A DNA stretch of 39,566 bases. It comes from Crenarchaeota archaeon 13_1_40CM_3_52_17 (GTDB taxonomy: Archaea; Thermoproteota; Bathyarchaeia; 40CM-2-53-6). Below are positions 4,460-36,540 of this stretch, one piece after another. The stretch spans positions 1-39,566 of the forward strand of contig MNGN01000055.1 in NCBI GenBank assembly GCA_001918745.1, read 5' to 3'. How positions within the stretch are numbered: the stretch's first letter is position 1; the number at the start of each line of letters is the position of its first letter. The notes beneath the pieces are model-generated. The model had not been told where the DNA came from. It saw nothing but the letters and a program-made list of their open reading frames with translations, and made no database searches. Position numbers and translations under genes: made by a program.

Positions 4460-5191
4460 ATGAGCAGCGATCGACAGCTAGCCGGTTCGAAAACGCAGCC
4501 AGCCGAGAGACACAAGCACATCCGCGCCAGAGGCTACATTGGAAGCTCTGCGCTGGGGATATCGGACGGGCTTCTCACAAACCTTGTATTTCTGAGCGGG
4601 TTTGCCGGAGCGATCTCCGACATTCAAACGATCCGGTTAGCGGGAATCGCTTCGATGCTCGCCGGAGCAATCTCCATGTCCTTTGCGGGATTCCTAGCAC
4701 AGCGATCGGAGTACGACCTTTACCATGCAGACGCCAAACGAGAAGCCGGAGAGATAGAACAAGAGCCTGAAGAGGAAAAGAGCGAATTAAGAAAATTCTA
4801 CTTGGCCAAAGGACTCAGCCAAGACGAAGCCGAAAAAATAGTCGAGAAGATATCCACGAACAAGGAGAAGTTCCTCGAAGATATTCTAATGCATGAATTG
4901 CATGTGCACGAGACGAGACTGGAGAACCCGATTAAGATGGGCGGAGTGATTGGCCTATCATTCCTGGTAGGAGCGCTGATACCCCTAGCACCATTCATCC
5001 TTCTAGCCACGGAGAACAGTTCGATCCTCGCTGCAGCCCTCATCTCACCATTGTTTCTATTTGGAGTCGGGGTCTGGAGGGGACGGATCGTGGGAAGGAA
5101 AATCTGGAGAAGCGGACTCGAAACTCTGATCATCGGCGTGGCCGCGTCGGCCGTCCTCTACCTTATCGGTACCGCCCTTGTATTTGTTTGA
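4460..5191 (+). CDS. VIT1/CCC1-family metal (Fe/Mn) transporter
   Basis: A 243-residue membrane protein. It opens with the family signature IGSSALGISDGLLTNLVFLSGFAGA, followed by the second membrane helix with AGAISMSFAGFLAQRSEYDLYHAD. The central charged segment (E-rich, about 95-145, KILHEL-like helices) is the cytoplasmic metal-binding domain seen in plant VIT1. Three more helices follow. VIT1/CCC1 proteins move Fe2+ or Mn2+ out of the cytosol, in prokaryotes probably across the cell membrane. It is divergent from the GNAT gene and stands alone. A second VIT1 domain, fused to a ferritin-like domain, lies at 36.5 kb. Confidence 0.88.
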   Translation: MSSDRQLAGSKTQPAERHKHIRARGYIGSSALGISDGLLTNLVFLSGFAGAISDIQTIRLAGIASMLAGAISMSFAGFLAQRSEYDLYHADAKREAGEIEQEPEEEKSELRKFYLAKGLSQDEAEKIVEKISTNKEKFLEDILMHELHVHETRLENPIKMGGVIGLSFLVGALIPLAPFILLATENSSILAAALISPLFLFGVGVWRGRIVGRKIWRSGLETLIIGVAASAVLYLIGTALVFV

Positions 5192-9468: not shown

Positions 9469-10713
9469 CTAGTGAGGGATCTCGAGCGGAACCAAAGTAG
9501 GCTCCGGCTTCGGGAACGCAGTCTCATGCCGCAGATAGGCTGAAGGATCCCGCAACCGTTTCTTCTCGCAGAGCTTCTCAAGGAACTTCATCGCCTTCCC
9601 AACCGGGTCCAACGGCTTTGCATCCAAGTAGCCCGATTCAACCGCGCCTCTAAGAATCTCATCTCCCCGCGGGCTCCTGGTAATCACCGTACTCCAGCCA
9701 GGAGACGATCCAATCGCACCAACAGCGATGTCCGCCAATTCGGCAGAATAGTCGACACAAGCATTGCATTCTTCCCGTGCCGCAGCCGCCACAGCCTCCA
9801 CAGGCTCATCAATAGCCAGCTTATCGCCTGTGTAGACTAGCAACCTGTTTCTCTTGATATTGACCTTCGAAACATTGTTGAGGTCTATTCCTCTCTTGCC
9901 CTGGACATAGTCAACCATCATCTTCTGATAATCAAACACCTTAGAACAGAACAGACCGATCGTAAATACGAGATTTCTCGCAAGCTTCGGCGCCGCGATC
10001 CAGTGAGTGCTCATACGCCAGTTTCCCTGAAGCTCACAAGGCAAACCGACAAGCGCAATACGCTCTTCCTGGAAGCTAACAAGTGACCGGTTGGGAATCG
10101 CTACCTCAGCCAATCCCCCGACCTGGCCTCCAGGCGTGTATCGGGACCCGGCGTGACTCAACAAGTCCTCTTTAGTCCGCGCGATCTGCGGCTCAGGCCG
10201 CCAAGGCTTGCCTGACGTGAGACCGGAATTGACGGCGTAATCGATGATCTTTCGATCGAGCGCATAGAGAAGGAGAGAAGTTACCGCCCCACCATCCTGA
10301 GCACGCTTGACCACGTCAGGGTCCTTCGACCTGACCGAGTAGGATCCGACATGAATCCCGAGAATCGCCTCTTCAGCAGTTCTCGACCTTCCGAAAACCT
10401 GTTGTTCGATCTCTGCGAGCGGTAGCTCGATCCTCGGGCAGCTGTAGTAGCAAACCTGGCAGGCAGCACAAGTACCCCTCATGACCGGTTCTTCTTTTTC
10501 GCTGTGAAAGAGAATGTCGATCGGACAGGAGGCAATGCAGGCGCCGCAGTACATACAGAGGTTCTTGTTCACAACCTCCTGGATGAGATTACCGAAGATC
10601 TTGAGCTTGATCGGCCGCGCCTTCCAGCCCTCACCCTCAACAGTCGACTTCAGCGGCGTAGGCTGGGGAAGCGCTGGCGACGTTGCGGGTTTCGGAGCTG
10701 ATTGAGCCGACAT
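9469..10713 (-). CDS. F420-binding FrhB/FpoF-like iron-sulfur subunit
   Basis: A 414-residue protein. After a Pro-rich N-terminus, two 4Fe-4S motifs occur: CMYCGACIASCP near residue 53 and CAACQVCYYSCP near residue 82. The remainder is the FrhB/FdhB-type domain (AQDGGAVTSLLLYALDRKIIDYAV, then YTPGGQVGGLAEVA, ERIALVGLPCELQGNWRM, IGLFCSKVFDYQKM), which holds FAD and F420 in F420-reducing hydrogenase and in FpoF of the F420H2 dehydrogenase. It is 3 bp after nuoI in the same operon, so it most likely feeds electrons from F420H2 into the complex I-like peripheral arm. It could instead accept reduced ferredoxin. It is the last gene of the operon. Confidence 0.85.
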   Translation of the reverse strand: MSAQSAPKPATSPALPQPTPLKSTVEGEGWKARPIKLKIFGNLIQEVVNKNLCMYCGACIASCPIDILFHSEKEEPVMRGTCAACQVCYYSCPRIELPLAEIEQQVFGRSRTAEEAILGIHVGSYSVRSKDPDVVKRAQDGGAVTSLLLYALDRKIIDYAVNSGLTSGKPWRPEPQIARTKEDLLSHAGSRYTPGGQVGGLAEVAIPNRSLVSFQEERIALVGLPCELQGNWRMSTHWIAAPKLARNLVFTIGLFCSKVFDYQKMMVDYVQGKRGIDLNNVSKVNIKRNRLLVYTGDKLAIDEPVEAVAAAAREECNACVDYSAELADIAVGAIGSSPGWSTVITRSPRGDEILRGAVESGYLDAKPLDPVGKAMKFLEKLCEKKRLRDPSAYLRHETAFPKPEPTLVPLEIPH

Positions 10714-10716
10714 TGT

Positions 10717-12306
10717 CTATTCCTCTTTCTGAGGCACCTGCGACGCGCCCCCAATCGTATCGACGCTGAACACGTACTTGTCGTCCTTCTTCACAGGCGG
10801 CTTCGAAAGCCTCTCCGGACTCCACACAAGACGATCACGCGTATACTCGGCAATATCATACTCGACCGTCTCCTCCAACGCAAACTCCGGACAATAATCT
10901 GTACAATTGTGTGCTGTCACGTTTCCCGCCACGTACGACTCGTCTCCTTCGACCGAAAGATTCACAACAGGCTGATCACGAACTTCAACTGAGGATATTT
11001 TCTCGACCGGCGCGTAGACATAGTCTGAGTCCATTTCAAAGCGAGAAAACGTCTTGACCCTCTTGTCCTCAAATCTGACCTGCATCAGATCTGCCATTGC
11101 CGAAACGAAACGGCCTCTAACCGTCACCACGTAGGTAGGTCTCTTTTCTGCATGGATGGCAAGTGCAACTTGGCCAACAATTCCTGTCCGGAAGAGGAGT
11201 TGTTGCAGCTGGAAGGCGAGTGTCTTGGAAACCGTTGTGTACTCGAAGAACGTTGAACGATTGCCCTTGGTTGGTCTGTGAAGGTGACTGTCGCCTCTCC
11301 ATGTTCCGCGTATGAGTTGTCGCTGCTTTTCGACCGGCGCAAACATAGCCCAATCCGGAAGTTTCTTGCTTTCCGCGCCCAGTCCAAAGGTTTCGAAGAA
11401 TTGAAGGGCAACTACGGAGTGGAGAAGGACATGGGTCGAATTGTGTATCGTAGACCTCTTGGTTTCGCGGCCGAAATATTTCTCGAGGAGTCGGGATGAG
11501 TCGGCAATGTACTCTTTTTCATGTTCTCCGAATGAAAAGCAGACAGTTCTCCTCACAGCATAACCTTCTGCAAGATAATACCCGATCAGCCTAAACAAAT
11601 CAGGCTCTGTTCTCACGCTCAGCTTGCTGCTGAGACGTTTTCCGGTGCTGGGCTGACCAACTACGACTTCCTGTTCGTAAACGTCGATGTCCCGAACCTC
11701 CTTGGGGATAGGCATCGTCATGTAGTCGCCCCGTTTCAGTTCAAGGGGTGTCTTCCACATGGGGGCCCTTGGTTTCTTCTCAAGTCTCCCCTTTTTGATG
11801 ATGTTTCTGGAAGAAACTAGGAGGGGATGATCCTGCGTCACCCTAAGCGGGAAAGGCGTTCCCAATGGTTTGATACTGTAGAGTCTTCCCGAGTAGTTTC
11901 GGGTAAGGACCTCGCGCACTCGACGGTAGCGCCCCGTGTGTGTCAAGACCCGGTCGCCAGGCTGTACCTGGATTATAGGTGACACAGATGGGTTCGTCGA
12001 TACAAGCGTATCAGGAGTTACGCAGAAATGGCAGAAACAACAACGGCCATAGAAGTACTGCGGGTACCATCGCTGTCCCCGTGGCACGATCGTTATGCAC
12101 TTCTCAGGACAGATCCACGCGCATATCCCGCAACCAGTACAACGATCGAGATGGAGTAAATGTCGTCCCCTGTATCCCTTCTCAACCGCATATCTCTGCT
12201 GGGGAAACCTCAACGTGTAAGGTCTATGGAAGAGATGACGAATACCAGTAAGATACGCGATCGAAATATCGAACGCAGCCTTTGCCTTACCAATAATCGG
12301 AGCCAT
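10717..12306 (-). CDS. nuoI: Complex I/Fpo 4Fe-4S subunit I, interrupted by an intein
   Basis: From ATG 12306 the precursor has 529 residues; after splicing out 373 residues the product is 156, the normal size of NuoI/FpoI. The subunit carries the two 4Fe-4S clusters that link the input module to NuoB. The first motif, CTGCGICAWICPEKC, is intact. The second is split: the host reads GRCCFCHF, then the intein, then CTDYCPEF. Joined, it gives C-CF-C-HF-C-TDY-CP, a complete CxxCxxCxxxCP. The start at 12306 lies 7 bp after the nuoD stop with a GAAAGG before it; a TTG at 12330 overlapping nuoD is less likely. FrhB-like gene follows after 3 bp. Confidence 0.93.
   Translation of the reverse strand: MAPIIGKAKAAFDISIAYLTGIRHLFHRPYTLRFPQQRYAVEKGYRGRHLLHLDRCTGCGICAWICPEKCITIVPRGQRWYPQYFYGRCCFCHFCVTPDTLVSTNPSVSPIIQVQPGDRVLTHTGRYRRVREVLTRNYSGRLYSIKPLGTPFPLRVTQDHPLLVSSRNIIKKGRLEKKPRAPMWKTPLELKRGDYMTMPIPKEVRDIDVYEQEVVVGQPSTGKRLSSKLSVRTEPDLFRLIGYYLAEGYAVRRTVCFSFGEHEKEYIADSSRLLEKYFGRETKRSTIHNSTHVLLHSVVALQFFETFGLGAESKKLPDWAMFAPVEKQRQLIRGTWRGDSHLHRPTKGNRSTFFEYTTVSKTLAFQLQQLLFRTGIVGQVALAIHAEKRPTYVVTVRGRFVSAMADLMQVRFEDKRVKTFSRFEMDSDYVYAPVEKISSVEVRDQPVVNLSVEGDESYVAGNVTAHNCTDYCPEFALEETVEYDIAEYTRDRLVWSPERLSKPPVKKDDKYVFSVDTIGGASQVPQKEE
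10906..12024 (-). mobile_element. Intein (373 aa) with LAGLIDADG homing endonuclease, in nuoI
   Basis: Begins at Cys (codon 12022-12024, CVTPDTLV: block A) and ends at His-Asn (codons 10906-10911, VTAHN) before Cys+1 (10903-10905). The block B histidine is in VTQDHPLLVSS. Block F is QPVVNLSVEGDESYVAGNVTAHN-like, spread over 10906-10976. The two dodecapeptides of a DOD/LAGLIDADG endonuclease are LIGYYLAEGYA (about residue 145 of the intein) and LIRGTWRGDSH (about residue 237), each retaining an acidic residue (E, D). All catalytic splicing residues (C1, block B H, penultimate H, N, C+1) are present, so splicing and perhaps homing should be active. Confidence 0.93.
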
Positions 12307-12313
12307 CGCCTTT

Positions 12314-13459
12314 CTACCTGTCCGCCTCAACCGGCCAGTAATCTATACTCCACCAAGCAGTAGGCATATCGGCTAAACGGCTCCCAAGCAGAACCGCAGG
12401 AATAGCGGCCATATTCCGATAGGAACCGGTAATGTATCGCGCCCGGTAGGGCTTGTCGCCCCCCTCCCCAATAAGATAAAAGCTACACTCGCCCCGGGCC
12501 GACTCGACCCTTCCATACGCAACACCACGAGGCAGCACTATCGGGGCCTTTCTCCTGATCGGTCCGGAAGGAATCTTCTTGACTATCTGGCGTATTATCT
12601 TGCAGCTCTCCCGCATCTCATCCATGTGGACCATCGCCCGACTGAAGGAATCACCGTCAGGCCGGGTCGAGACCTCGAAGTCAAGTTCAGGATACGCGGC
12701 ATAAGGCTCGTCCTTGCGAAGGTCCGCATCAACACCTGAACCCCGGAGAGTTGGCCCCGTGCAGCCTAGCTCGATCGCTTTTTGTTTCGGGAGGACTCCG
12801 ATTCCCTTCGCGCGAGATGTGAATAGGGGGTTGTTGAAGAATATCCTGTCATATTCTTTCAAACGTTTCTCGAAGTATTCTGTTCGTTTGACAGCTTCCT
12901 CAGCAAATCCAGGCGGCAGATCCCGTCGAACACCACCGGGTACGAGATAGGAGTACGTTATCCTGGCTCCAGTGAGCTTCTCCGCAAGATCGATGAATAG
13001 CTCTCTGTCACCGAGAGGCCACATGAACATGGTGGTATGCCCGAGAAATACCCCATAGATGGAGAGCCAGTAGAGATGGCTCATGATCCTGTTCATCTCG
13101 TTCAGAAGAGTCCTGAGGTATTGTCCCCTTCGAGGAACCTCGACCCCTTGAATCTCCTCGATCGACCTCACCCACGCATGATTGAGATTGGAAGCATCTA
13201 TGATCGAGGGTCTTTCGATAACTGGAATGCTTTTGATGATATTTCTGAGCTCGATTATCTTCTCGATTCCTCGGTGTACGTAGCCGGGGTCTGGTGAAAC
13301 GTTGACAATGATATCTCCATCCACTTCCACGATCAACCGCATGTGACCTGAGCCGGAGTGCTGAGGACCAACGCTCAGCGTGAGCGTTTGAGCTCCGGAG
13401 TCAGATGTCTCGGTGGACTCGACAGTTGTCAGGGGAACGGGTTTAGGAGGAGCCGACAT
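12314..13459 (-). CDS. nuoD: Complex I/Fpo subunit D (49-kDa-like)
   Basis: 381 residues. Family features: GPQHSGSGHMRLIVEVDGDIIVNVSPDPGYVHRGIEK at 31-67, then PVIERPSIIDASNLNHAWVRSIE, the long helical core with VPGGVRRDLPPGF, RSGSGVDADLRKDEPYAAY-like TLRGSGVDADLRKDEPYAAYP, and the C-terminus WWSIDYWPVEADR. The four hydrogenase cysteines of [NiFe] enzymes are absent, and the C-terminal aspartate fits the quinone-reactive NuoD/FpoD branch. With NuoB it forms the quinone (or methanophenazine-like carrier) site. Lies 7 bp after nuoC and is followed by nuoI. Confidence 0.93.
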   Translation of the reverse strand: MSAPPKPVPLTTVESTETSDSGAQTLTLSVGPQHSGSGHMRLIVEVDGDIIVNVSPDPGYVHRGIEKIIELRNIIKSIPVIERPSIIDASNLNHAWVRSIEEIQGVEVPRRGQYLRTLLNEMNRIMSHLYWLSIYGVFLGHTTMFMWPLGDRELFIDLAEKLTGARITYSYLVPGGVRRDLPPGFAEEAVKRTEYFEKRLKEYDRIFFNNPLFTSRAKGIGVLPKQKAIELGCTGPTLRGSGVDADLRKDEPYAAYPELDFEVSTRPDGDSFSRAMVHMDEMRESCKIIRQIVKKIPSGPIRRKAPIVLPRGVAYGRVESARGECSFYLIGEGGDKPYRARYITGSYRNMAAIPAVLLGSRLADMPTAWWSIDYWPVEADR

Positions 13460-13466
13460 TGCTGTC

Positions 13467-13949
13467 TCAGTCTGTAGGAAATCGTATGTCTTTCCGGAGA
13501 GGAGGAGGCCCGTCCCAGTTGTCGGTAAGAAACAGCTTCTCCAACCTCGGATGGCCCTCGAATGTTATTCCGAACATCTCGAAGCTTTCTCTCTCATAGT
13601 TCTCAACGCCCGACCAGACAGAAACCAGAGACCCCACCCTCGGCGCGTTTCTTGGAACTGACTCTTTCAAGTCAAGGACGAGATCTCGCATTCCCTTAAT
13701 GCTTATCGATGAAACATGGTAGACTATCTCGAACCTGTTTTCTCGGTTGTAGTCAACAGCAGAGACCCCGTTCGGATGGTCAAACCCGAGTTTGTCTCGG
13801 AGAAAAACTGCGACGTCCTTGATCTTTTCGGGAGCGACCGTCACTTCAAGCCTAGCACGACGGATAATGTTCGTTTCCTTGATGTCGGCGGGAAAGCTCT
13901 CTTTGAGCTTCTGTACGAGAGCATCTTCTCTTTCGTGCGAAAGGCTCAT
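13467..13949 (-). CDS. nuoC: Complex I/Fpo subunit C (30-kDa-like)
   Basis: 160 residues. The typical NuoC core is clear: DVAVFLRDKLGFDHPNGVSAVDYNRENRFEIVYHV, then LKESVPRNAPRVGSLVSVWSGVENYERESFEMFGITFEGHPRLEKLFLTDNWDGPPPLRKD. The signature ERESFEMFGI-x-FEGHP-x-L-x-x-LFL-x-D-W is complete. It is a structural scaffold subunit of the peripheral arm. Its ATG overlaps the nuoB stop by 4 bases (ATGA type), implying coupled translation. Confidence 0.93.
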   Translation of the reverse strand: MSLSHEREDALVQKLKESFPADIKETNIIRRARLEVTVAPEKIKDVAVFLRDKLGFDHPNGVSAVDYNRENRFEIVYHVSSISIKGMRDLVLDLKESVPRNAPRVGSLVSVWSGVENYERESFEMFGITFEGHPRLEKLFLTDNWDGPPPLRKDIRFPTD

Positions 13950-14497
13950 CCCTGCTCGTACACCTTTGATCTTCGAATCTTCTCTTGGAGCATGATGATC
14001 GCCTGCTCCAAAGCCTCCGGTCTCGGAGGGCAGCCAGGAACGTAGACGTCTACTGGTACAAACTCGTGCGCGCCGTTGACTATACTATAGGAATCATGGA
14101 ATAGGCCGCCGGACATGGCGCAGTCTCCCATCGCAATAACATACCTAGGCAATGCCATCTGATCGTATATCACTCGGAGCCGTTTCGCCATCTTCTTCGT
14201 GATAGTCCCCTCGATCACAATCAGGTCCGACTGCCGGAGAGAACCTATCGGCAGAACACCGAACCGTTCAAGATCGTGTCGCGCACCACTTGCCGCGCCG
14301 AACTCAGCACTACAACATGCTGTTGTGATATTGACCGGCCATAGCGAGTACATTCGCGCCCAGTTAATCACGTTTCGAATCGGCCCAGTGTCAACGACCT
14401 TCTTGACAAGATCGCTTAGTTTTCCAACCCAGATGCTCAACCCCTCTGCAAGCGTCGCTACAGGGTCTTCTTCCTGGGCAGTTCTCTGAGCGGACAA
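13946..14497 (-). CDS. nuoB: Complex I/Fpo subunit B (PSST-like, cluster N2)
   Basis: 183 residues with the four ligands of cluster N2: C61-C62 in TACCSAEF, C126 in MGDCAMSGG and C156 in PGCPPRPEAL. The cluster passes electrons to the quinone bound between NuoB and NuoD. The TTG start is followed by a short extension (MSAQRTAQEE) similar in style to the N-termini of NuoD and the FrhB-like protein of this operon (MSAP, MSAQ). It is the first gene of the B-C-D-I-F operon; no nuoA, H or J-N genes are in the window. Confidence 0.93.
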   Translation of the reverse strand: MSAQRTAQEEDPVATLAEGLSIWVGKLSDLVKKVVDTGPIRNVINWARMYSLWPVNITTACCSAEFGAASGARHDLERFGVLPIGSLRQSDLIVIEGTITKKMAKRLRVIYDQMALPRYVIAMGDCAMSGGLFHDSYSIVNGAHEFVPVDVYVPGCPPRPEALEQAIIMLQEKIRRSKVYEQG

Positions 14498-31989: not shown

Positions 31990-33363
31990 CTAAGGAACAA
32001 ATATGGTGTAGAGTAGGAAGCTATTGAAAGCTATGATTAACGCGACTGTAACTATGGCCAGGACGAGGGTGATCCTTCTATTGACAAAGCCTGCCATGAA
32101 CTTCCTCTTTGAGGTATAGTAGACGATAGGAATCATCGGGAGAGGAATCATGAGACTCAGAATTACCTGACTGTAAACGAGTAGACTGAGCGGATCCAGT
32201 CCAAGCAGTATTGCGAACGTGGTTGGAAACACATTGATGAATCTCGTAACTATTCGTCTCGCCCATACATTCCAGTGCTTACCGATCAAACCCTCCATTA
32301 TGACCTGGCCTGCTATTGTTCCAAGCGCCGACGAGGAGAGCCCCGATGCAAGCAAAGTCAGAATGAAAATAACGGCGATCGCCGGTCCGAATAAAAGGCC
32401 GATCCCATGGACGAAATCGCTGACCGTAACGCTTGGATTCGGATAGAGTGGGACTGCGACCAGCAGTATTCCCGCATTGACTACAGACGCAATAGTCAGA
32501 GCCAGTACGGTTTCCTTGAGATGGAATTTCCTCGTTCTCTCTATCTCTCCGGTTGAAAATGCGTGATGATTGGCCGTCGGTTTCATTGATTCGGTGACTG
32601 AATCACTCAGGTTTCCCCCGTTGACCCTTCGCCCTATGAGGTCCATCTTGTTTTTTGAAAGCCAGGAGTGAACAAACAGCGCGTGCGGCATCACGGTCGC
32701 GCCGATTATTCCGACTACTATTAGGATAGCGGCGTTGCTTGACGCGATGGGCACGACGGAGTGGTACGCGACCTGTGTCAAGTCGGGTCTGACCACCACG
32801 AGGTTGTAAAGGATGCCAAAGACGAGAACGCTGATCAATATCGCGAAATATTGCTCAATAATACGGAATCTCTTGCCCATCATCGTTAGTAAGATGATGA
32901 CATCCAGAGCGCCAAATATTGCTGCGTAGAGAAGTGGGACCCCAAAGAGCAGATTGAGACCCAATACCGTCCCCAAGTATTCTGCCAAGTCTGTGGCTGC
33001 GACTGCAGCTTCTGCCGCGAGCCAGTAAGGAACAACATATCTGCGCTTTACAAGCGACATCCTGACCAGTTCAGGCAGCGAATAGCCGGACGCAATTCCG
33101 AGTTTACCAGAGAGGTACTGAAGAAGCATGGCCATGCCTCCAGCAAACCAGGCGGCCCAAAGGAGATCGTACTTGAAGCCGGCACCAGCAGCAATGTCCG
33201 TCCCATAATTGCCTGGATCCATGTATGCAATGGATACCATCAGTGCGGGTCCAAGCCAAAGGACGAAGCTACGCAGAGAAACGCCCTTCCCGGTTTGCTG
33301 AACTGGTGCATCGACCAGAACTTGCTGTTGGGCCTTTGCACTAGTTTTCCACGGGAAACGCAA
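31990..33363 (-). CDS. mntH: NRAMP-family Mn2+/Fe2+ transporter
   Basis: 457 residues with about 11 membrane helices. DPGN in the first helix (residues 49-52, AYMDPGNYGTDIAAG) and MPH in the sixth (VMPHALFVHSW) are the metal-binding pair of NRAMP transporters, which import Mn2+ or Fe2+ with protons. The length is usual. TTG start. The promoter carries a DtxR-type operator overlapping the TATA box, and a DtxR-type regulator is the adjacent gene on the other strand. Confidence 0.92.
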   Translation of the reverse strand: MRFPWKTSAKAQQQVLVDAPVQQTGKGVSLRSFVLWLGPALMVSIAYMDPGNYGTDIAAGAGFKYDLLWAAWFAGGMAMLLQYLSGKLGIASGYSLPELVRMSLVKRRYVVPYWLAAEAAVAATDLAEYLGTVLGLNLLFGVPLLYAAIFGALDVIILLTMMGKRFRIIEQYFAILISVLVFGILYNLVVVRPDLTQVAYHSVVPIASSNAAILIVVGIIGATVMPHALFVHSWLSKNKMDLIGRRVNGGNLSDSVTESMKPTANHHAFSTGEIERTRKFHLKETVLALTIASVVNAGILLVAVPLYPNPSVTVSDFVHGIGLLFGPAIAVIFILTLLASGLSSSALGTIAGQVIMEGLIGKHWNVWARRIVTRFINVFPTTFAILLGLDPLSLLVYSQVILSLMIPLPMIPIVYYTSKRKFMAGFVNRRITLVLAIVTVALIIAFNSFLLYTIFVP

Positions 33364-34306: not shown

Positions 34307-35179
34307 CTAGGCTCCTCCCAGCGTTACTATCAAGTCCGTGAGAAAGCCCGCGCATAAGCCTACGAAAATGCCTATCATGAGGATCTGATTTGTTGTCTGT
34401 TTTCTTCCCGAGTTGTACATCAGCATTGAGACGTAGAGAATCGCGCCACCTGCTAGGCTGAGAAAGAGTACGTATGTGAAGACGGAGGTCCACAGGCTCC
34501 CTACAACGGTTCCGATGAAAGTAGGACCACCACCTACCAGTCCGGCTACGGCCAGAAAACGTGCCGTTGGCCTCTTGATGAGCCCCGCTAGCGGACCGGC
34601 TATGCCGAATCCTTCAGTGGTGTTGTGCGCGCCAAAACCAATTACCAACAACAGTGCCAGCCCGACAGATCCGGAAGCGTAGGATTGGCCGACTGCGAGA
34701 CCTTCGCTAAAGTTGTGGGCGCCTATACCAATGGCGATCATCATTGCAAGCCTGTAGGGGTGATGCTCTTGGAGAATCTGGATCTGCTTGGCTTGTTCAG
34801 CCGCGCTTAGCTGAGCGGTCACTGGCCCGTTCTCCAGACGCGCCTTGACAATCGGTGGTGCCTTTGCCATGTACTTCGCCTCGTAAGCCACCAGTCCCAG
34901 GAGCCCTAGTGCAAGTCCGCCGAAGACGGCGATAAGGTCCATCGCAGCGTCGACACTGGAGCTTTTTCCGGCGAAAGCTGTTGATGCAACGCTTGTTGCG
35001 GTATTCCATGCGTGGCTGAACACATCGATAACGAGGAACAAGAGGATGCCGATCGACAGAGCGTTGAGGAAACCCTTTTTGCGCGAACTCACATTTTGGA
35101 GAATGGCCAAGGGTAGACCGAGAAAGATTGTGAAGCCCGCTATGGCACCTAACAATAGAAGCTGTGCATAGTCAATCAA
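34307..35179 (-). CDS. ZIP-family metal transporter
   Basis: 290 residues with about eight membrane helices. The double HNxxEG signature of the pore is present in TM4 and TM5: IGAHNFSEGLAVGQSYASGSVGLALLLVIGFGAHNTTEGFGIAGPLAG. A long charged loop with KMAKAPPIVKARLENGPVTAQLSAAEQAKQIQILQEHHPYRLA sits before it. ZIP proteins import Zn2+, Fe2+ or Mn2+ or, in some archaea, work in reverse. TTG start. Upstream is a GTTATAAC TATA element next to a TTATG-t-CATAA palindrome. Confidence 0.9.
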   Translation of the reverse strand: MIDYAQLLLLGAIAGFTIFLGLPLAILQNVSSRKKGFLNALSIGILLFLVIDVFSHAWNTATSVASTAFAGKSSSVDAAMDLIAVFGGLALGLLGLVAYEAKYMAKAPPIVKARLENGPVTAQLSAAEQAKQIQILQEHHPYRLAMMIAIGIGAHNFSEGLAVGQSYASGSVGLALLLVIGFGAHNTTEGFGIAGPLAGLIKRPTARFLAVAGLVGGGPTFIGTVVGSLWTSVFTYVLFLSLAGGAILYVSMLMYNSGRKQTTNQILMIGIFVGLCAGFLTDLIVTLGGA

Positions 35180-35237: not shown

Positions 35238-36540
35238 TTCTGTTGATTTATCGTCGGTCGCCTCTCTGACTTATACCTAGGATTCTTGCTCTTGTCGTTT
35301 ATTGTGTTGGCTGTCAAGTCTGCCTGGCAGTACTATGCTCCAACAGGCGATGTTCTCCGATTGCTGGACGTGTTCAGACGGATGGTTAACGATTCCATTC
35401 GAATCGGTCTGTTGAACGATGCGTCTTCGCTGAGAAAGCTTTCACTCCTCTCCTATAACCAACTCGCCCGCTATGATTCTCCTAGCTACTACAAGCTCTG
35501 CGCGATAAGCAAAGCAGCAGGAATACTAGCGGCTAGGAACAAGTCTGCCAGGAGAGGGTTTCCTACTAGGACCCCGTATGCTGTCAGACAGCAGCTCGTC
35601 TCCTGTTACGGTTTCAAGATAGAGAATGGAGGACTGGAGATTCCGATATCGAGAGGTAGACGTTTCAGCATACCCTTGACCAAGCACGTGTTAGAGATCA
35701 TATCTCAACCAGGAGTCAAGGTTCGCTCTTTCACCCTCAGCCGGACCAGGCTCTGCCTCTGCATCGCTCGAGACCCTCCCGTGGTAGAATGCGTCTCCAC
35801 CGTAGGCGTGGACCGTAATCTTCGAAATCTCACAGTTGGAAACGATGATCAGACCCGTCAGTATGACCTCTCGAAGTGTGTAAGAATAGCAACCACCACT
35901 GTACGTATCGTCGCCTCTTTCACACGGGACGATGATAGGATAAGAACAGCGATAGCGTCCAGGTATGGACAGCGGAGAACCTCTAGAACCGGTCATCTAC
36001 TCCATAGTGCCACAAAAGCAATCGTCACCCTAGCAGTCCAACGGAAAACAGCAATAGTTCTCGAGAACATTGAGGGCATACGATCCCTCTACCGGAAGGG
36101 TAACGGTCAGGGTAGAAAGTATCGCGGTAGAATGAACGGATGGAGTTTCGGCGAGGCTCAACGACAGATCGAGTACAAGGCCAGATGGGTAGGACTACCG
36201 GTTATCCGTTTGTCTAGGCGTGAGACCAAAGGTTCCAGCTTGTCTTGTCCGAGATGCGGGGAGAGACTCCAATCAGACAAACGACTAGAACGTAAGCTCT
36301 GGTGCGGTAAATGCCGCGCAGTAATGGACCGAGACATGGTTGCAGCGATCAACCTGGCTCGGCGGGGACGGGTGAGGTTCGCACGTTCTCGGCCTCCCAT
36401 ACTTCTAGAGGCGCAAGGCGGAGCAGGTGAAGCAATGAAGGGGAACCCGACGCCTACGGTAATCCCCGGAGTCGATGCCCCGAAGCTAACTCAACCAACA
36501 AAGAGTTAACAGAACCGGGCTAACTAAATACCGGAGACAA
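35238..36540 (+). mobile_element. IS1341-like (IS200/605-type) element with tnpB, copy 1
   Basis: Left-end sequence conserved with copy 2: TTCTG...TTATCGTCGG...CTCTCTGAC...TAT from about 35238. No TnpA-like gene lies beside it, so it is a tnpB-only element. The right end must lie between the tnpB stop (36509) and the ferritin-VIT1 gene (36563); a TAACTC/GAGTTA hairpin spans the stop codon (36487-36508) and a CCGG...CCGG pair follows. The exact end cannot be fixed without the end of copy 2. As in other TnpB systems, the 3' part of tnpB and the right end may encode the guide RNA. Confidence 0.6.
35304..36509 (+). CDS. tnpB: TnpB RNA-guided nuclease/transposon protein
   Basis: 401 residues from GTG 35304, a start conserved with copy 2 (a TTG 18 bp earlier is also in frame). 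Complete RuvC nuclease: D170 in VGVDRN, E254 in VLENIEGI, and DRD (342-344) in MDRDMVAAINLA, with the zinc ribbon CPRCGERL...CGKCR between the last two. TnpB uses the element's own RNA as guide to cut DNA. All catalytic residues are present, so the enzyme may be active. N-terminal part is the usual helical recognition segment. Confidence 0.9.
   Translation: MLAVKSAWQYYAPTGDVLRLLDVFRRMVNDSIRIGLLNDASSLRKLSLLSYNQLARYDSPSYYKLCAISKAAGILAARNKSARRGFPTRTPYAVRQQLVSCYGFKIENGGLEIPISRGRRFSIPLTKHVLEIISQPGVKVRSFTLSRTRLCLCIARDPPVVECVSTVGVDRNLRNLTVGNDDQTRQYDLSKCVRIATTTVRIVASFTRDDDRIRTAIASRYGQRRTSRTGHLLHSATKAIVTLAVQRKTAIVLENIEGIRSLYRKGNGQGRKYRGRMNGWSFGEAQRQIEYKARWVGLPVIRLSRRETKGSSLSCPRCGERLQSDKRLERKLWCGKCRAVMDRDMVAAINLARRGRVRFARSRPPILLEAQGGAGEAMKGNPTPTVIPGVDAPKLTQPTKS

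Follow-up and report, generated by a model that had tools for sequence, protein, structure and literature searches.

The nuoI gene of Crenarchaeota archaeon 13_1_40CM_3_52_17, encoded in a contig of 39,566 nucleotides (MNGN01000055.1, the whole stretch analysed and referred to here as the window), is interrupted by what is in all probability a mobile intein of the class 1 type that carries a LAGLIDADG endonuclease, inserted at a conserved position (the NuoI-a site) where it splits the second ferredoxin motif of this complex I-type subunit. Both its splicing and its DNA cleavage are predicted from sequence and structural models. The mechanism is a known one, and the novelty lies in the host sites within NuoI. 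The distribution of the intein and its divergence among relatives point to a homing parasite in the first place. The first-pass annotation of this DNA knew of no intein in NuoI, and none was found in the titles and abstract openings of the open-access papers searched, a source in which no report of an intein in Bathyarchaeota was found either.

The precursor is encoded on the reverse strand, like the rest of its gene cluster, by a frame (10717-12330) that is open throughout and joins host and insert in one ORF of 537 amino acids when read from a TTG. An ATG at 12306, located 7 nt downstream of the nuoD stop codon, is the likelier start, since G014, G005, G016 and other relatives have an in-frame stop just before this Met; the nuoI of G002 lacks the Met itself. 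The N-extein (12025-12306) contains the whole of the first 4Fe-4S motif and the second one up to RCCFCHF, and the C-extein with its stop codon (10717-10905) starts with CTDYCP, at the third Cys that the insertion has displaced from the second motif. The gene is preceded by nuoB (13946-14497) and nuoC (13467-13949), both identified by family profile scans, and by its direct upstream neighbour nuoD (12314-13459). Directly 3' of it lies a gene for an FrhB/FpoF-like subunit with N-terminal 4Fe-4S motifs (9469-10713), which completes a nuoBCDI-frhB cluster; nuoH is found on a separate contig of the same genome. This genome, 80% complete, holds one nuoI N-half (E<=1e-5). The identity of the host as NuoI/FpoI is given by its two 4Fe-4S motifs and the nuo neighbourhood. 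The exteins match NF004541 (3.3e-22) and TIGR01971 (1.7e-21) below the curated cut-offs, as expected because the host protein is interrupted, and Fer4 above its cut-off.

The insert (10906-12024) comprises 373 residues from Cys1 to His-Asn, begins with CVTPDT and ends with TAHN, with the junctions YGRCCFCHF/CTDYCPEF (the slash marks the insertion point). The coordinates and length reported by the first-pass annotation are exact, and so is its placement of the insertion immediately ahead of the third Cys in the second CxxCxxCxxxCP motif (RCCFCHF/CTDYCP); only the CCFC stretch, credited there with four other nearby cysteines, has to be corrected to three. The complete splice residues and the endonuclease motifs that it noted were also found, giving an active-looking intein: Cys1, T63xxH66 in block B, H372, N373 and Cys+1 are all present, and the acidic residues E153 and D245 are kept in LIGYYLAEGY, which starts at residue 146, and LIRGTWRGDSH, which starts at 237. 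Converted from residue numbers, the two LAGLIDADG motifs correspond to 11563-11589 (residues 146-154, LIGYYLAEG) and 11284-11316 (residues 237-247), both on the reverse strand. The second motif of the window copy has GDS in place of GDG, and the intein of G014 carries an Asn instead of D245, so that some of these endonucleases may be dead.

Among Pfam profiles, the insert matches LAGLIDADG_3 above the cut-off (1.8e-8), and Hint_2 and Intein_splicing below theirs. An AF2 model of the intein alone, built from 27 aligned rows, reached a pLDDT of 90.6 and a pTM of 0.90, and its top Foldseek match was 7qsu (E 3.2e-21, TM 0.71/0.73), followed by 7qss, 2cw7 (PI-PkoII), 7qst (PhoVMA) and entries of PI-SceI and PI-PfuI. 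The TliVMA intein of 7qss and 7qsu is thus the best fold match and shares the splicing domain and the LAGLIDADG endonuclease, but shows 16-17% identity and resides in a V-ATPase. A PDB sequence search returned three distinct sequences at E<=0.01, with PI-PkoII as the best. The model of the whole precursor, made from 9 close rows, was set aside (pLDDT 35.9). The assignment to class 1 relies on an in-frame insert at whose ends uninterrupted homologues join exactly, and on a modelled Hint-type fold that best matches intein crystal structures.

With these residues and this fold in place, self-excision with extein ligation is to be expected, and it is very likely, judging from the sequence, that the intein still splices. 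Cys1 would take over the bond of Phe-1 as a thioester, Cys+1 would attack this thioester, Asn373 would cyclise, and the exteins would be joined, restoring CCFCHFCTDYCP. The third cluster Cys of the precursor stands 373 residues off, and normal formation of the second 4Fe-4S cluster is therefore not expected; the proposed reliance of this motif on splicing is supported by the insertion site, from which it was deduced. The endonuclease, in turn, would cut uninterrupted nuoI alleles, into which the intein would be copied.

A comparison with the nuoI genes of relatives, as the first-pass annotation had suggested, revealed a mixture of occupied and empty alleles. NuoI is present in all 21 genomes of the family, and 14 of them carry the intein at the identical point. 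Ten copies are complete (G000, G001, G003, G008, G012, G013, G014, G015, G017 and G019) and four are incomplete: those of G002 and G011 run to a contig end, that of G006 is spread over two contigs, and that of G005 (L038, L059) lacks about 55 nt and has its frame broken, which means that this nuoI is either dead or wrongly assembled. The gene is uninterrupted in the remaining seven (G004, G007, G009, G010, G016, G018 and G020). Neither chance nor a single assembly slip accounts for this pattern, given the shared point in 14/21 genomes and the seven empty alleles. The complete copies go down to 70% identity to that of the window. Cys1, the Thr and His of block B, the C-terminal His-Asn and Cys+1 are kept in 10/10 of them. 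The same carrier/empty mixture is seen in 19 named loci, which by sequence represent largely the same genomes, and an order-level search (E<=1e-10) found relatives of the intein in 16 of 38 genomes, all 16 within the family.

Independent movement of the intein is suggested by the comparison of its dS with those of the nuoI exteins and nuoD in 10 listed pairs of complete carriers with a nuoD dS <1.6. The intein value was lower than both others in 9/10 pairs, from clearly so in G000-G014 (0.149, against 0.68 for nuoD and 0.92 for the exteins) to only slightly in G003-G013 (0.66 vs 0.85 and 0.70). The opposite holds for G015-G012, with 0.914 for the intein and 0.19 and 0.26 for nuoD and the exteins. 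For G008-G001, the nuoD value is weak, with a broken frame in G008 and 105 sites compared. As the discord runs in both directions, a plain rate difference is inadequate to explain it, and intein and host gene have separate histories, the intein DNA moving or being replaced independently of the gene. Between G013, with the intein, and G009, without it, a mismatch island reaches from ~710 nt ahead of the site to 614 nt beyond it, flanked by nearly identical DNA. This island was first taken as clear co-conversion, a reading weakened by a wider profile, in which other mismatch islands without inteins occur in the same stretch; co-conversion is for this reason suggestive only.

The redox- or metal-controlled switch proposed by the first-pass annotation is chemically plausible by analogy with known inteins. 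The redox trap of the MoaA intein was reportedly described by Callahan et al. in 2011. Excerpts of PMC10663303 and PMC3922620 describe a disulfide that, under oxidising conditions, ties an extein Cys to Cys1 of the Pyrococcus abyssi MoaA intein and controls or prevents its splicing, and according to an excerpt of PMC6195587 the mycobacterial DnaB intein forms another splicing-inhibiting disulfide. Applied to NuoI, a bond formed under oxidation between Cys-3 (CHF/C) and Cys1 would block splicing, production of NuoI and its complex would be confined to reducing cells, and the host would keep the intein for this purpose, which we regard as possible though rather improbable. Cys-3 and Cys1 are the pair given for the MoaA trap in the excerpt of PMC3922620, and that host is also an oxygen-sensitive enzyme, but the gene is a different one, and the NuoI intein is likened to it by its Cys positions. 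CHF/C is seen in the 14 family copies, and in an alignment of 9 precursors C97, C100 and the +1 Cys do not vary; the same spacing appears in Por/KorB (CPG/C), ABCE1 (CGI/C), a B12 radical SAM protein (CDF/C) and Tes-like radical SAM proteins (CWY/C). Cys1 is the sole Cys in seven of the ten complete family inteins and no other intein Cys is conserved, so that a general disulfide partner would have to be an extein Cys. However, Cys-3 follows automatically from the CxxC ligand spacing: it is a cluster ligand, and an intein that precedes the second Cys of any CxxC will have it. Moreover, inteins at a second NuoI site (site b, YGR/C) and in IscU (NPV/C or NPI/C) lack Cys-3, and 7/21 family genomes live without the intein, which means that regulation by it is not required. 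That close relatives differ in carrying it speaks against a dependence of the host on the intein.

In a phylum-wide sample, 21 of 398 genomes contain relatives of the window intein at E<=1e-22; outside the phylum, 14 control genomes were covered, for one family. The closest relatives outside the family are again in NuoI, at the same point, in G133 (40%) and G369 (38%), the latter a one-contig genome listed as 100% complete. The NuoI-a site is thus filled in two other families, f61 (that of G369) and f40, in which 1/12 genomes gave a match. In G186, NuoI is interrupted six residues upstream, before the first Cys (YGR/CVFCGFC). Further relatives reside in Por/KorB at WCPG/CGDF, including the genome of the window itself (loci with CPG/CGDF: L002 on its contig C62, L065, L079, L080, L082, L085 and L094), in ABCE1 at CIGCGI/CVKKCP, in IscU/NifU at GNPV/CGD (L084 and L086, with V or I before the junction), in a B12 radical SAM protein at CDF/CW, in endonuclease IV at CLDT/CHAY, and in MetK, Hel308 and a helicase-like protein, the last one from the order search. 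Pfam backs these hosts with the exception of the helicase-like protein. In the class of G369, 24/300 genomes match at E<=1e-55, and the matches outside f61 are frames of Por/KorB size. Long open frames beside the NuoI N-halves of G553, G531 and G530 proved on inspection to be without intein. The first-pass annotation had held that the same insertion at another gene would speak against its reading; what was encountered are relatives of the intein in other genes, which fits mobility. Plasmid records (10/130 listed) and phage records (10/94 listed) yielded distant relatives only, the best with 26.6% and 31.2%, respectively, as did viral loci (45 matches; best 30%, and 41% over one short segment). 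In a general intein census, a second complex I-type Fe-S subunit, NuoB, is by its sequence also invaded, before the Cys of MGA/CAISGG (L104, backed by Pfam, and L108; genomes G092 and G151).

NuoI behaves as a two-site hotspot in f61, where its N-half was found in 37/46 genomes. Eight genomes carry an intein at site a only, 14 at site b only and six at both, and seven inspected ones are uninterrupted, in a tally that leaves out G607; G593 ends at a contig end. NCBIfam assigns NuoI to three of these precursors, and some of the full-length inteins deviate from the usual LAGLIDADG motif. The double-intein genomes are G583, G584, G617, G605, G590 and G592 (loci L221/L293, L227, L228, L274, L275 and L277); the a-intein of G592 runs off its contig, and a second nuoI copy in G605, a genome with a listed contamination of 8%, is b-only. 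A distance of 18 nt separates the two inteins of a double and leaves a middle extein of six residues (CVFCGL or CVFCAL) with two cluster Cys. Site-b inteins of 172-182 aa, without room for an endonuclease at this length, occur in 4/6 doubles and 0/15 b-only genes (p = 0.0025, from non-independent rows that represent at least two lineages in the tree). How a pair around a six-residue extein splices, and how its overlapping homing targets compete, give these alleles an interest of their own, and the empty, single and double alleles of nuoI in nature offer a comparison for telling a parasite from a gate of cofactor assembly.

From the literature examined, the closest printed precedent is that of the haloarchaeal MCM-a and MCM-d inteins, for which excerpts of PMC10643990 describe neighbouring sites, alleles with one, both or no intein, interspecies transfer and some mini-inteins. 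Unlike MCM, NuoI is a respiratory Fe-S subunit, and its sites are 18 nt apart within one cluster motif. Table 1 of PMC10643990 shows no multi-intein genes in Crenarchaeota (56 genomes) or Thaumarchaeota (18); several inteins were found in single MCM frames in the present census, so this table reflects its sample.

In a tree of 54 inteins, with some near-identical rows left out, the NuoI-a, NuoI-b and ABCE1 inteins fall together on one side of a branch supported by 98/98 (99/97 in an earlier tree of 44). NuoI-b and ABCE1 are each supported by 100/100 and NuoI-a by 91/86, the joining of ABCE1 to NuoI-a is weak (82/74), and G133 nests among the f61 NuoI-a copies (95/82). Each site thus has its own lineage, and within this sample those at ferredoxin motifs group on a common branch. 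The ABCE1 inteins, at the matching ferredoxin position, suggest that a shared motif has allowed passage between dissimilar genes; in the alignment, the two LAGLIDADG motifs of all four ABCE1 inteins are without their acidic residues, which have been lost.

Nucleotide-binding, DNA replication and repair proteins are the usual hosts of inteins, as stated in an excerpt of PMC10643990. When the relatives at E<=1e-22 were grouped by hand, leaving one row (G014:C16) unclassified, 6 of 10 host sites fell at an Fe-S ligand or scaffold Cys. The background consisted of 110 intein C-termini from 200 genomes, drawn from listed matches: 30 rows with loci plus 80 others (6 from the window's genome and 74 random ones of 108), after excluding, before sampling, 6 rows already counted as relatives. 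Approximately 43 sites were distinguished in it, 5 of them at an Fe-S Cys (7/110 rows). The enrichment, exploratory and judged by hand, has a Fisher p of 0.003, or 0.016 if the ferredoxin group is counted once. Host names in the census are mostly those we presume from C-extein motifs, and L063 and L110 are presumably a helicase and a radical SAM protein. A Pfam check of ten representative hosts bore out nine, the exception being L169, a radical SAM protein by motif.

Two further known systems bear comparison. According to an excerpt of PMC8891592, the SufB intein of Mycobacterium tuberculosis also has its host in Fe-S biology, but SufB is an assembly factor, whereas the NuoI intein interrupts an electron carrier within its cluster-ligand motif. 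The intein-containing tetraether synthase model NF045703 (Tes) weakly matches the endonuclease and C-terminal part of the insert (2e-13), and in Tes-like radical SAM hosts the intein likewise precedes a cluster Cys; the host is another one, and the score of 49 bits compares with a cut-off of 1700.

These data could be extended to the view that such inteins are specialised on ferredoxin-type 4Fe-4S motifs (the two sites of NuoI, and ABCE1), spread between archaeal families by homing, and act through splicing as a redox or iron checkpoint, with doubles needing two excisions around a six-residue extein. We consider this quite unlikely as a whole. It is motivated by the fact that the +1 nucleophile is a cluster ligand, with a second ligand at -3 in NuoI-a and ABCE1. 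Three non-Fe-S hosts, and four of the ten host sites, argue against the wider group being strict in a preference for Fe-S proteins.

Where defined, dN/dS of the intein ranges from 0.07 to 0.16 in the splicing part and from 0.08 to 0.36 in the endonuclease part, omitting G008-G001 (0.90, with almost no changes) and with many pairs saturated, and by these ratios the intein is under purifying selection in both domains. That the insert has degenerated, no longer splices and leaves carriers with a dead NuoI is very improbable: the broken frame of G005 and the endonuclease Asp missing from G014 would agree with it, but the fully conserved splice residues of the complete copies, the low dN/dS of the splicing part, an extein dN of up to 0.087 among these ten copies and the intact nuo genes next to nuoI in the window do not. 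An assembly or binning artefact can practically be discarded, for although most genomes are drafts in many contigs and contigs end within the intein in G002, G006 and G011, ten complete in-frame copies diverging down to 70% identity share one exact site, which is also occupied in the single-contig genome G369.

Some other features of the window and its genome deserve mention. The genome, of 1.8 Mb, contains many inteins, including those of KorB, endonuclease IV, PurL, CDC48 and MCM (two sites), and presumably also of uS12 and Hel308, hosts recognised by motif. Elsewhere in the census, loci L101 and L161 of G169 have what we take to be SufB-like C-exteins, with two different intein sites in one genome. 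An ORF at 35286-36509 of the window, on the forward strand, resembles a TnpB-family RNA-guided nuclease, with PF07282 above its cut-off and NF040570 just under. Finally, the 40 kb of the window hold, besides the nuo cluster, metal transporter genes of the Nramp (31990-33363) and VIT1 (4460-5191) types, together with a ZupT-like gene (34307-35179) whose match is far below the cut-off.
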